Source: Actinocrinis puniceicyclus
GTDB taxonomy: Bacteria; Actinomycetota; Actinomycetes; Streptomycetales; Catenulisporaceae
Reading direction: 5' to 3'
NCBI RefSeq assembly: GCF_018283645.1
Contig: NZ_JAGSXH010000031.1
Span: forward strand, 1 to 56,442
DNA: 56,442 nucleotides
Shown: piece by piece, positions 19,492 through 54,061 of the stretch
Numbering within the stretch: position 1 is the stretch's first letter
How the letters are laid out: each line of letters begins with the position of its first letter
The notes under the pieces: model-generated
Told to the model about the DNA's origin: nothing
The model's database searches: none
What the model saw: only the letters and a program-made list of their open reading frames with translations
Translations under genes and position numbers: made by a program

Positions 19492-20577
19492 ATGGCACGC
19501 ATATCCATGGCCACAGCCGTCCTAGGGCCGATTGCCGCCATTGCCGCGGCTGCCGTGCTCACCGCCTGCTCCGCCGACGATCCCGCGCACCGCTCGTTCC
19601 GCCCGCAGGTGATCACGGCGTCCGGAATCCCGTACACAGGCAACGGAATCGCCGCCCTGGACCCGCAGGCGATCATGGCGACGACGGTCAAGGCCACCTC
19701 CTCCGCGCCTACGGTCCACCTCACCGGTTCGCTCAGCGGCGTACCGGTACCCAGTGCACCGGCGACTGACTCGGCGCGAAGCCGATACGAGGCAACCGGC
19801 TCGGGCTCGAACGCCGACGGTTCATCCTCCACCGCCGTGCCCTTCAGCGCCGGGAAGTTCACGGTGGACATGGTTTTCACCCAGTTCGGTGCGGTCGGCG
19901 ACATCACCAGCGGGAGCGTCACCAGCCGCCTGCTGCGCGTCGAGGACGAGGTATGGACCGCGGAACCCGCGTCGTTCTGGAAGGAGATCGGCGCGATCGA
20001 CAACGGGAATGCATACGGCGGCCTGTACGTGCGAATACCGGCGGCCGATCCCCGGTACGGCGGGTTCTCCGAGGACACGCGCATCGGCTACCTGCTCGAC
20101 CATCTGCTGCTGACGTCCACGACCTGGGCGAAGGGGCCCGTCGGCACCGTCAACGGCGAGAACGCGCTGGAGTTGGACGGCATCGGGCACAACGGGCACA
20201 AGGCGTCGATCTGGGTGGCCACAGACGGTCGGCCGTACATCCTGCGTATCGCGCCGACGGCCGGCAGTTATCGGGGCCGGATCGACTTCACCGACTACGA
20301 GGATCGCGTCGCGGTCCAAGCGCCGCTGCCCGGCCAGGTGCTCGGCAACGCGCTGCTGGTGGTGCCCAGTGCGAGCCCGAGCGCGACTCCCAGCGCGCAG
20401 CCGACCGCCACGGGACCGGCCAGGCCCACGGCGACCGTCACCGGCAGCCCGCAGGTCGACGTGAGCGCCTCGGCTTCCGCCTCGTCCAGCGCGTCGCCGT
20501 CCGCCTCGGACACGCTCTCGCCGTCCGCGTCCCCGTCGCCGAGCGCCTCGCAGACCGGCCGCGCCGGGCCCCACTAG
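19492..20577 (+). CDS. Lipoprotein with LppX/LprG-like core and Ser/Pro-rich tail
   Basis: The product has 361 residues from ATG 19492. The signal peptide ends in the lipobox VLTAC with Cys26, so the protein is lipid-anchored outside the membrane. The body (ALDPQAIMATTVKATSSAPTVHLTGS..., FTVDMVFTQFGAVGDITSG..., LLRVEDEVWTAEPASFW...) looks like a LolA/LppX-type half-barrel used to bind hydrophobic ligands. The last ~70 residues are Ser/Ala/Pro repeats and probably disordered. The TAG stop (20575-20577) lies within the CTAG flank of a miniature mobile element. Ligand unknown. Confidence 0.75.
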   Translation: MARISMATAVLGPIAAIAAAAVLTACSADDPAHRSFRPQVITASGIPYTGNGIAALDPQAIMATTVKATSSAPTVHLTGSLSGVPVPSAPATDSARSRYEATGSGSNADGSSSTAVPFSAGKFTVDMVFTQFGAVGDITSGSVTSRLLRVEDEVWTAEPASFWKEIGAIDNGNAYGGLYVRIPAADPRYGGFSEDTRIGYLLDHLLLTSTTWAKGPVGTVNGENALELDGIGHNGHKASIWVATDGRPYILRIAPTAGSYRGRIDFTDYEDRVAVQAPLPGQVLGNALLVVPSASPSATPSAQPTATGPARPTATVTGSPQVDVSASASASSSASPSASDTLSPSASPSPSASQTGRAGPH

Positions 20578-20676
20578 GCGGTGTTGGGGAATGTATCAAG
20601 GCAACGTTTCGGCCGTGCGTCCAGGCGAAGTCGATCACCGGACTCGCCCCTTGAGGCATTCCCCAACACCGCCTAG
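20574..20676. mobile_element. Miniature inverted-repeat element, family 1, short copy
   Basis: A 95-bp element (20578-20672) is flanked by CTAG on both sides (20574-20577 and 20673-20676), consistent with a 4-bp target duplication of the IS5 type. Terminal inverted repeats start GCGGTGTTGGGGAATG, perfect for 16 bp, and continue to 24 bp with two mismatches. There is no coding capacity. It is the inverted, internally deleted relative of the 210-bp copy at 52495-52704. It lies between the ends of two convergent genes and can form a hairpin that may act as terminator. Confidence 0.8.
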
Positions 20677-20703: not shown

Positions 20704-21234
20704 TCAGCGCGAGCGCGTGGTCGCGGGCGAGGGCGGAACGGGAGCAGCCCCGGACGCGGGGGAGTAACGGCGCGGGCCCTCGATCAGCGCGCCGTGCGGT
20801 CGGATGCGGAAGATCGCCGAGTTGATCGCCCACCGCTCCGGCTGCGCCTCGCCGTCGTGTGCGTTGAGCCGCTTGGAGTGCAGTACCGGAACGACCGCGG
20901 CCCACTCCTCGCCGTCCGGCGTGATCCGGGACACCAGGCCGGGCCAACTCGCCAGCCGGCCGCCCTTGTCCTTGGACCGCACGGTGACCCGCACCGTGAT
21001 CCCGTCGGCCAGTCCGGGCAGCGACTGCTCGCCGCCCCCCACCACGACGTAGACGGCGCCCTGGCCGTCCTGCTCGTGCCACACGTGCCAGGCGGCCCGG
21101 TCGCGCGCGCCGGGGACCGCGATCCAGATCAAACCCGACTTCTTACACGCCTCCTCGACGAGTGCGGCGTCCGGGACGGACAGCGTGGAAGGGCCGGAGG
21201 CGGGCGAGGGCGCGGACACCGACGGGCTGGTCAT
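20704..21234 (-). CDS. Conserved hypothetical actinobacterial protein
   Basis: The product has 176 residues. After a Ser/Pro-rich N-terminus, the core (EEACKKSGLIWIAVPGARDRAAWHVWHEQDGQGAVYVVVGGGEQSLPGLADGITVRVTVRSKDKGGRLASWPGLVSRITP) is rich in beta strands and resembles split-barrel flavin/PNPOx-like folds, but no cofactor motif can be confirmed. The Cys at about residue 30 and two Trp-rich strands are notable. It is convergent with the lipoprotein gene across the miniature element. Function unknown. Confidence 0.6.
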   Translation of the reverse strand: MTSPSVSAPSPASGPSTLSVPDAALVEEACKKSGLIWIAVPGARDRAAWHVWHEQDGQGAVYVVVGGGEQSLPGLADGITVRVTVRSKDKGGRLASWPGLVSRITPDGEEWAAVVPVLHSKRLNAHDGEAQPERWAINSAIFRIRPHGALIEGPRRYSPASGAAPVPPSPATTRSR

Positions 21235-51534: not shown

Positions 51535-52494
51535 ATGGCCGACCACGGCGACGCGGCGACCGGACCGCTCGGACGGCTGGCCCTGGCGCGCGGCGTCGTG
51601 GATCGCACCGCGCAGTTGCGGCTGGACGAGCTCGCCTTGGCCGCCGCGTGGTCGAATCCGGACACGCGGGTTCTGGTTGTCAGCGAGGGCCGCGCGTTCG
51701 TGCTCGACGAGCCGGATCCGGTGACGGCGGACGGAAGCCGCCCTCGTCTGGTGACCCTTCCCTCATACGACGCGCCCGATGGCGATCGCTATCTGCTCGG
51801 CCGGGATGAGCGGGGCTTCACGTACTTCGCCGTCCCGGCCGAGACGCTGCCGGGGCGGCTCGACGGGGACGCCCGGCCGGCGTCGCTGCGCGAGGTGGGC
51901 GTGCATCTGTCCGACCGGGACGCCGGCCTTCTCACGCACGCGGTCGCGCTTGAGCACTGGCACCGCAGCCACCGCTACTGCCCGCGGTGCGGCAACCCGA
52001 CCGAGGTGGCCGCCGCCGGGCACATCCGCCGCTGCGCCAACTGTGGTACCGAGCACTATCCGCGTACCGACCCGGCCGTGATCATGGCGGTGACCGATCC
52101 CGACGAGCGGCTGCTGCTCGGTCGTGGTTCGGCCTGGGATCAGCGGCGGTTCTCGGTCCTGGCGGGTTTCGTCGAGCCGGGCGAGTCGCTGGAGCAGGCG
52201 GTGGCCCGCGAGGTGGCCGAGGAGGCCGGGCTGACGGTCACCGCGGTCACTTACATGGGCAGCCAGCCTTGGCCCTTCCCGTGCAGCCTGATGCTCGGCT
52301 TCACCGCGACCGTGGACGACCCCGGGCGGGTGCGCGCCGACGGCGAAGAAGTGCTTGAGGTGCGCTGGTTCACCCGTGAGCAGCTGGCGCAGGCGTCCGC
52401 CTCGGGCGAGATAGTGCTGTCGGGGCAGATCTCGATCGCCCGCGCGCTGATCGAGCACTGGTACGGTGGGCCGCTCGCGCAGGAGTCGACCTAG
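51535..52494 (+). CDS. nudC: NADH pyrophosphatase / RNA decapping NudC
   Basis: The 319-residue Nudix hydrolase has the zinc ribbon CPRCGNP...CANCGTEHYPRTDP, the Nudix box GFVEPGESLEQAVAREVAEEAGL and the NADH-specific SQPWPFPCSLML motif. It cleaves NADH and removes NAD caps from RNA 5' ends. ATG 51535 has GGAGGGGAAACGAG upstream. The gene sits near adnAB, mrx1 and uvrD2 as in mycobacteria. The TAG stop (52492-52494) is within the CTAG flank of the miniature element immediately downstream. Confidence 0.93.
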   Translation: MADHGDAATGPLGRLALARGVVDRTAQLRLDELALAAAWSNPDTRVLVVSEGRAFVLDEPDPVTADGSRPRLVTLPSYDAPDGDRYLLGRDERGFTYFAVPAETLPGRLDGDARPASLREVGVHLSDRDAGLLTHAVALEHWHRSHRYCPRCGNPTEVAAAGHIRRCANCGTEHYPRTDPAVIMAVTDPDERLLLGRGSAWDQRRFSVLAGFVEPGESLEQAVAREVAEEAGLTVTAVTYMGSQPWPFPCSLMLGFTATVDDPGRVRADGEEVLEVRWFTREQLAQASASGEIVLSGQISIARALIEHWYGGPLAQEST

Positions 52495-52708
52495 GCGGTG
52501 TTGGGGAATGCCTCAAGGGGCGAATCCGGTGATCGACTTCGCCTGGACGCACGGCCGAAACGTCCACAGACGACCGCTGTGTTGAATCATGAACGCGCGA
52601 GGACGCTCCGGCCGCGCGCCCATGCTCGTCGCTGACCGGATTCGCCATGACGATTCCGACAAAGGGCGGTCGAATCGTTGCCTTGATACATTCCCCAACA
52701 CCGCCTGG
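52491..52708. mobile_element. Miniature inverted-repeat element, family 1, long copy
   Basis: A 210-bp element (52495-52704) has CTAG on the left (52491-52494) and CTGG on the right (52705-52708), probably a CTAG duplication changed at one base. Terminal inverted repeats GCGGTGTTGGGGAATG are perfect for 16 bp, continuing as in the copy at 20574-20676. Relative to that copy it is inverted and has about 115 extra internal bp, including a stem-loop module. No transposase is encoded, so any movement would depend on an enzyme elsewhere. Confidence 0.8.
52553..52613 (+). repeat. Structured module, copy B (inside family 1 element)
   Basis: GGCCGAAACGTCC (52553-52565) faces GGACGCTCCGGCC (52601-52613), forming a 13-position stem with two A-C mismatches. 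Inside, ACAG...CTGT forms a smaller hairpin. The strand from CCGAAACG to CAGACGACC is 20 of 21 identical to copy C in the neighbouring, otherwise unrelated element. Confidence 0.65.
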
Positions 52709-52909
52709 TGTCCCGCGCCGGAAATCCGTCGCATGACTCTGCTCGACCTGGCTGCGCGCGTCCGGTCATCCGCGCCCGGCTGGCAAGGCGCCGGAACACC
52801 CTCGCGGTGCTCAATCAACGCAGTGGGTCGTCTGTGGGCGTTTCGGCAACGCGGCCAGGCGGGATGCGGGGGCCGATTTTCACGGCGGATTTCCGGCGCG
52901 GGACACTAG
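52705..52909. mobile_element. Miniature inverted-repeat element, family 2
   Basis: A 197-bp element (52709-52905) ends in the perfect 20-bp inverted repeat TGTCCCGCGCCGGAAATCCG. It is flanked by CTGG (52705-52708, shared with the family 1 element) and CTAG (52906-52909). The terminal repeats are unrelated to family 1. Short frames inside do not look like transposase. It fills the space between nudC and the MsiK-type gene. Confidence 0.75.
52782..52849 (-). repeat. Structured module, copy C (inside family 2 element)
   Basis: Read on the minus strand, TTGCCGAAACGCCC faces GGGTGTTCCGGCGCCTTGCC. The stem CCC/GGG, G-T, C-G, A-T, A-T, the A-C mismatch and GCCG/CGGC parallel copies A and B. The CAG/CTG inner hairpin of copy B is kept. 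Confidence 0.65.
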
Positions 52910-52948: not shown

Positions 52949-54046
52949 TCAACGCTGCGGATTGAGGCGGCGTCCGGTGCGTGTCTCGAAGAGGTGCACC
53001 GCATCCAGTGCCAGCTGAAGCCCGACTGCCGAGCCCGGGCGAGGCGCGGCATGCGGCTCGCAGCGCACGACGATCGACTTACGGCGCTCGCCGACACCCG
53101 TAGCGCAGTGCGCGTAAGCGACGTAGCCGAGGTTCTCGACGGCTTCGACGTGTGCGTACAGACCGCTGCCGGGTGAGGTGATGTTCACACTGTCGGGACG
53201 GAAGCCGACCGTCACCTCGGGTACCTGCAACTCGGACGCGGTCTTCCGGTCGAGCGGCAGCTCCAGCACGTCCACGTCGCCGAGCACGACCCAGTCGTAC
53301 TCGACCCGCGCCTTGATCAGGTTCATCGGCGGCGAACCGACGAACGCGCCCACGTAGGCGTTCAGGGGATTTTCGTACAGCGCGCGCGGCGTGTCGCACT
53401 GCAGCAGCACGCCGTCCTTCATGACCGCGATGCGGTCACCCATCGTCATGGCTTCGATCTGATCGTGCGTCACGTAGATCGTGGTGGCCTCAAGCCGCCG
53501 CTGCAGAGTCACGATCTGGGAACGCACGTCCGTGCGAAGCTTCGCGTCCAGGGCGCCGAGCGGCTCGTCCATGAGGAAGACCTTGGGCTCGCGCATCATC
53601 GCGCGGCCCATCGCGACCCGCTGCTGTTCGCCGCCGGACAGGGTCCGCGGCAGCCGGTCCAGGGTCGGGGTAAGGTCGAGCTGCGCGGCCATCCGGCGCA
53701 CCCGCCGGGCTACGGCCGAATGCGGGGCGCCGGTCAGCACGAGATGGAAGCCGAGATTCTCGGCGACCGTCATCTGCGGGTAGAGCGCGTAGTTCTGGAA
53801 CACCATCGCGATGTCGCGTTCGCCCGGCTGCGTCTCGGTGACGTCGACTCCGTCGATGAACACCGCGCCGCTGTCCACCGTCTCCAGCCCGGCCAGCATC
53901 CGCAGCGCCGTGGTCTTACCGCAGCCGCTGGCCCCGAGCAGCACCATGAACTCGCCCGACCCGATGGTCAGATTCAGACAGTCCACGGCCGGGTTCTTCG
54001 TCCCCGGATACGTGTGAGTAGCATCGACGAACTCGACGGTAGCCAT
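52949..54046 (-). CDS. ABC transporter ATPase of the MsiK/UgpC (carbohydrate import) family
   Basis: The 365-residue protein has Walker A GASGCGKTT, the Q-loop MVFQNYALYPQMTV, signature LSGGEQQRVAMGRAM, Walker B VFLMDEPLGALD and the H-loop TIYVTHDQ. A C-terminal TOBE/regulatory domain follows (VEAVENLGYVAYAHC, ALDAVHLFETRTGRRL). In Streptomyces one MsiK energises several sugar importers, and no permease genes lie nearby here, which fits a shared ATPase. ATG 54046 has GGAG upstream. The leader has two hairpins just before the ribosome-binding site. Confidence 0.9.
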   Translation of the reverse strand: MATVEFVDATHTYPGTKNPAVDCLNLTIGSGEFMVLLGASGCGKTTALRMLAGLETVDSGAVFIDGVDVTETQPGERDIAMVFQNYALYPQMTVAENLGFHLVLTGAPHSAVARRVRRMAAQLDLTPTLDRLPRTLSGGEQQRVAMGRAMMREPKVFLMDEPLGALDAKLRTDVRSQIVTLQRRLEATTIYVTHDQIEAMTMGDRIAVMKDGVLLQCDTPRALYENPLNAYVGAFVGSPPMNLIKARVEYDWVVLGDVDVLELPLDRKTASELQVPEVTVGFRPDSVNITSPGSGLYAHVEAVENLGYVAYAHCATGVGERRKSIVVRCEPHAAPRPGSAVGLQLALDAVHLFETRTGRRLNPQR

Positions 54047-54061
54047 GATCTCCACCCGGAC

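Follow-up and report, generated by a model that had tools for sequence, protein, structure and literature searches.

The window, a stretch of 56,442 nucleotides from Actinocrinis puniceicyclus, contains two places, 20574–20577 and 52491–52494, where a CTAG overlaps the TAG stop codon of a plus-strand gene. At each of them a short repeated element of a family termed F1 adjoins the stop, and a minus-strand gene converges on it from the other side. The second F1 copy is followed directly by an element of a second family, F2. The features are as follows:

19555–20577, plus strand: called gene of 340 aa, last codons CAC TAG, with its stop at the left end of F1 copy 1
20575–20576: probable left TA of the target duplication of copy 1; the upstream gene's TAG stop consists of this TA and the first G of the element
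20577–20673: F1 MITE copy 1, 97 bp, running from G to C, with inverted ends GGCGGTGTTGGGGAATG(TA/CC)TCAAGG
20674–20675: probable right TA of the target duplication of copy 1, flank sequence
20704–21234, minus strand: convergent gene 3' of copy 1, no match in the NCBIfam search
51535–52494, plus strand: nudC, NAD(+) diphosphatase, last codons ACC TAG, stop at 52492–52494
52492–52493: probable left TA of copy 2, completed to the TAG stop of nudC by the G of the element
52494–52705: F1 MITE copy 2, 212 bp
52709–52905: F2 MITE, 197 bp, ends TGTCCCGCGCCGGAAATCCG, flanks CTGG and CTAG, adjoining F1 copy 2
52949–54055, minus strand: convergent gene past copy 2, ABC transporter ATP-binding protein; its best NCBIfam match, NF008653 (UgpC-like), is under the cut-off

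In both plus-strand genes the codon before the stop (20575–20577 and 52492–52494) ends in C, and both sites lie between convergent genes, as the earlier note described. Its statement that CTAG is avoided also holds for the window, with 13 occurrences observed against 70.5 expected. Among its gene names, nudC is borne out by NF001299 (240.9 bits versus a cut-off of 158), whereas an LTAC-like N-terminus is the sole ground for calling the product of 19555–20577 a lipoprotein, a protein with no Pfam and no NCBIfam match. In three genomes of the same family, nudC orthologues end within about one residue of the nudC of the window and have the same convergent neighbor. The downstream sequence in two of these three genomes shows that both genes stop at TGA and that F1 is absent. 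One relative carries its own hairpin-like repeat, seen by eye, between the nudC orthologue and the convergent neighbor. Elsewhere in the window, positions 425–499 form a short tandem repeat with a 15-base unit, CGGCAGGCTGGAGAT.

F1 is a MITE: its copies are short (83–213 bp), repeated (21 two-ended copies in the draft genome, with ends occurring genome-wide), devoid of a transposase and bounded by inverted ends that begin GGCGGTG and, in copy 1, extend over 28 nt with 93% complementarity. The 21 copies do not include the one-ended copies on contigs C69 and C399, the isolated two-mismatch matches on C138, C288, C377 and C415, or three decayed copies (C222:37090, C55:16059 and C233:1984), none of which is on a stop. 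TA is present in the left flank of all 21 copies and in the right flank of 20. The flanks read CTAG/CTAG in 14 copies, CTAG/CTAA in five, TTAG/CTAT in one (on contig C8) and CTAG/CTGG in one, copy 2 of the window, whose right flank borders F2. Accordingly the targets were assigned as CTAG in 15 cases, CTAA in five and TTAT in one, while CTAG accounts for 205 of 11,967 TA sites in the background. The sequence duplicated at the target is most likely TA, which makes the G of TAG the first base of the element: in five copies the flanks read CTA[..]TAA, an arrangement most simply derived from a CTAA target. The choice rests on these five, since the CTAG copies fit 2 bp and 4 bp alike. The start directly after CTAG that had been proposed earlier is therefore probably one base off. 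A duplication of all four bases, CTAG, is less likely, as no copy reads CTAA[..]CTAA. With a TA duplication, the element's own first base, G, would therefore rebuild TAG at both ends. On contig C177 (L071, position 9921), F1 is inserted between convergent MarR-like and COX1 genes whose stops overlapped at a single CTAA, and both genes now end in separate TAGs. No target motif extending past CTAG was seen in base counts judged by eye.

The closest insertion sequence ends are those of elements 1121 bp long, present in two genomes of the same family (L096 and L097), which have the ends GGCCGTGTTGGGGAATG, flanks CTA[..]TAG and a transposase of the IS5 family (DUF4096 plus DDE_Tnp_1; NF033580, 271.6 bits). 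These elements resemble F1 in 16 of the outer 17 bases of one end, a single difference, in their flanks and in lying on called stops in both cases; they differ in their length, in carrying a transposase and in an interior that is not common to both. An autonomous IS5 element of the NF033580 type with matching ends was found in relatives and not in the genome itself, where a search for a full-length partner transposase gave three weak or partial matches, the best of 73 aa near a contig end; this genome is a draft of 430 contigs, in which a transposase copy may be missing. In another genome, copies with GGC(G/A)GTGTTGGTGAATC ends stand beside pieces of a related transposase, and a scan of contigs with the F1 end returned eight loci, mainly in unrelated organisms. 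At C76:8892–9310 (L099), an IS5-type start (CTAG, then GCCGCGTTTTGGAATG) and the first open frame are broken off near a contig end. From the shared ends and flanks we infer that F1 is moved by an IS5-type transposase.

Two other families were compared. Membership in IS481, of the type of the transposon TnRErm46, calls for a repeat starting TGTTGCGGGTC and a duplication NCTAGN and was rejected, since F1 starts GGCGGTG and its CTA[..]TAA flanks share TA. Among IS630 and RUP-type MITEs, IS630 is reported to favor the TA in CTAG and to duplicate TA (a 1991 paper by Tenzen and Ohtsubo is among the references), and RUP is described as a MITE that is probably mobilized in trans (PMC2229807, PMC2170065, available text). 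F1 has the same TA duplication and CTAG preference; this comparison concerns target features as given in that text, and the F1 ends match the IS5-type element.

The position of the copies relative to genes was determined with a home-made, codon-usage gene caller trained on 422 kb, run alike on rebuilt empty sites and on background sequence. Twelve of the 21 F1 copies are on the stop of a called gene (10/19 outside the window): 11 on one stop and one, on C177, on two convergent stops. The copy on C8 lies ten codons within a gene end, and the remaining eight are intergenic. The background comprised 1.12 Mb and 205 CTAG sites, with 36 on stops, 119 elsewhere in intergenic sequence and 50 in genes; it was systematic rather than random (25 loci at or near copies plus 60 stretches, namely every 11th contig and parts of long contigs) and retained 205 of 267 sites after exclusion of those close to F1 or F2 ends or to a contig end and of those on contigs shorter than 1500 bases. 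Copies with a CTAG target are on stops in 9 of 15 cases versus 36/155 for non-genic background CTAG (Fisher p = 0.004), and all non-genic F1 copies in 12 of 20 (p = 0.0012). Four calling thresholds gave 11 or 12 F1 copies on stops, with p values of 0.0008–0.0013 against non-genic CTAG. CTAG availability alone is insufficient to account for this enrichment. The expectation in the earlier note that copies would exceed the share of stops given by CTAG frequency is thus upheld, while its premise that stops are among the few available CTAG targets is wrong, the background offering 119 intergenic and 50 genic sites against 36 stops.

F2, a second CTAG-flanked family with the ends TGTCCCGCGCC, is unrelated to F1. 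Among 59 end matches, 18 two-ended copies could be classed, the others being one-ended or without both sides, and 10/18 are on stops (p = 0.0057; CTAG was used for every F2 empty site regardless of the flanks). Only 4 of the 16 F2 copies with both neighbors called lie between convergent genes, so that enrichment there is not clear, yet stops are frequent. The flanks of F2 are unequal in 11/18 copies, often with CTAG on one side and CCAG or CTGG on the other (52709–52905 in the window; L170, L171, L177, L182, L187, L135, L150 and others). Five of the copies with unequal flanks are on a stop, and TAG is on the gene's side in all five. F1 and F2 have a common CTAG-like junction in three places: 52705–52708 in the window, C1:3425 and C222:37171 (L087; decayed). 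The pattern looks as if the doubled CTAG of one insertion attracted the next element. At L086 848–1048 (C399), a hybrid element has an F1 left end joined internally to an F2 right end.

Gene arrangement is biased as strongly as stop use. F1 copies lie between 12 convergent, 8 tandem and 1 divergent pairs (n = 21); convergent pairs are thus over-represented (12/21 versus 23/148 in the background, p = 8e-5) and divergent pairs under-represented (1/21 versus 53/148, p = 0.003). A similar bias is known from a survey of prokaryotic insertion sequences, in which ten families showed an excess between convergent genes and 21 a deficit between divergent ones; its discussion puts the deficit in promoter regions down to loss of host fitness (PMC9208149). 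The available text of that survey deals with whole families and not with stop codons or MITEs. When stratified by arrangement, with the C8 copy excluded, the odds ratio for stops is 2.3 for F1 (p = 0.21), 3.8 for F2 (p = 0.06) and 2.9 for both families together (p = 0.03). In a logistic fit, the effect of the stop is inseparable from nearness to the gene 3' end (p = 0.46 with both distances in the model; the distance tests used 14 F2 copies with both neighbors). Gene ends are thus clearly preferred, whereas no clear preference emerges for the stop codon as such. The target-choice strategy put forward in the earlier note is therefore not demonstrated, the convergent and divergent biases being as strong and the F1 stop excess within strata not being significant.

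The observations are probably best explained by a non-autonomous MITE of IS5 type that targets CTAG/TA, combined with the loss of harmful insertions. An IS5-type transposase would insert F1 at TA, with a strong preference for CTAG (and also CTAA or TTAG), duplicating the TA. CTAG is rare in the genome, and part of it is present as C followed by a TAG stop. Insertion at such a site would leave the gene whole because TA and the element's first base, G, restore TAG at each end, and convergent genes with a common insertion site would both retain their stops. Insertions that fall inside a gene or separate it from its promoter would be harmful and would be lost, and the surviving copies would be concentrated at gene 3' ends, above all between convergent genes. 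Indeed, only one F1 copy in 21 and no F2 copy in 18 is inside a gene (1/39 together), compared with 50/205 background CTAG sites; as CTAG sites in genes exist, this near-absence points to selection. The concentration on stops most likely reflects, in the main, survivor bias added to CTAG targeting, with the loss of harmful insertions explaining most of it.

A less probable explanation is that the insertion machinery itself prefers gene 3' ends (terminator regions, convergent supercoiling or paused polymerase) and thereby meets C-TAG stops. The stop excess persists when sites closer than 150 bp to a start are set aside (F1 12/17 and F2 5/6, versus 19/61 in the background), a weak excess remains in the pooled strata given above, and the effect occurs in two unrelated families. 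Both IS5 relatives with two flanks and called genes are also on stops (2/2), a third having no called gene nearby; however, one-sided flanks of IS5 relatives end in a stop in only 2/8 cases, counts in which the relative at L079 was assigned to a stop by hand and the junctions at L079 and L084 were read one base off. Within arrangements, moreover, F1 copies compared with background sites are on stops in 9/12 versus 11/23 cases for convergent pairs (p = 0.12) and in 3/8 versus 24/72 for tandem pairs. The lack of a visible motif past CTAG likewise speaks against such seeking.

It is still more doubtful that copies at stops are kept as domesticated 3' elements, whose hairpin would end transcription both ways, as the earlier note proposed, or guard mRNA 3' ends. 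F1 RNA is predicted to form strong hairpins in both directions (−58 to −78 kcal/mol, z −5 to −8), and both the convergent bias of F1 and the hairpin-like repeat at the corresponding place in one relative would suit this role. The strength of the hairpins is expected, however, because any MITE has inverted ends; no intrinsic terminator (GC hairpin plus T run) was predicted at either window site, where the hairpin is without a T run, and 9/21 F1 copies are off called stops.

That the element makes the stop, by inserting into sense codons near gene ends so that TA plus G becomes a new TAG, is very improbable. G does follow TA at both F1 ends, and the rebuilt empty site on C8 reads TAT, leaving the frame open for eight further sense codons. 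Two homologues of the C8 gene, though, terminate at nearly the same position (KRTAWMKS* and KRTQWMR*), which makes an earlier stop likelier than one created by the element, and this 13th F1 copy probably also hit a stop. In the 12 counted F1 cases TAG or TAA is already present in the empty site, and among five F2 copies in which one flank lacks TAG, the codon scores of the read-through are negative in four and neutral in one, so that this explanation is largely refuted. Chance or a gene-calling artefact is just as improbable despite the low counts, the single genome and the home-made caller, since the background was called identically, the outcome is stable across thresholds and, of the 13 genes that end at F1 copies, nine match a Pfam family at E < 0.001, seven of these scoring over the curated cut-off (GH25, amidase, MarR, COX1, peptidase M50B and two NUDIX proteins). 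Judged by these matches, the host genes at F1 copies are natural genes.

The stop-codon effect itself is not new. In Rhodococcus equi, TnRErm46/ISRe46 (IS481 family) inserts at CTAG, and some of the genes that it hits remain uninterrupted, with the TAG in its flanking repeat acting as their stop (PMC6794481, available text). In the open-licence literature, this was the sole precedent found for CTAG elements on stop codons. As far as that text describes it, TnRErm46 is like F1 in its CTAG target, its actinobacterial host and its use of TAG stops, but it is a large resistance transposon with a duplication NCTAGN and the inverted repeat TGTTGCGG.., whereas F1, a MITE, has ends starting GGCGGTG.. 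and probably duplicates TA. The additions made here are the counts against a background, the anatomy of TA and G and the comparison of two families. A bolder reading, for which the odds are poor, is that high-GC actinobacteria harbor a guild of CTAG-targeting elements at gene ends, with TAG-restoring ends, an active preference for stops over other CTAG sites and doubled CTAGs that seed nested insertions of other families at one and the same gene end, as in the three F1–F2 junctions.

Taken together, the data quantify, in two unrelated families of one genome, an effect otherwise met in open-licence print as a remark on one transposon. F1 and F2 provide a clean system for telling target choice from purifying selection, and they suggest a reason why many short repeats are carried cheaply.
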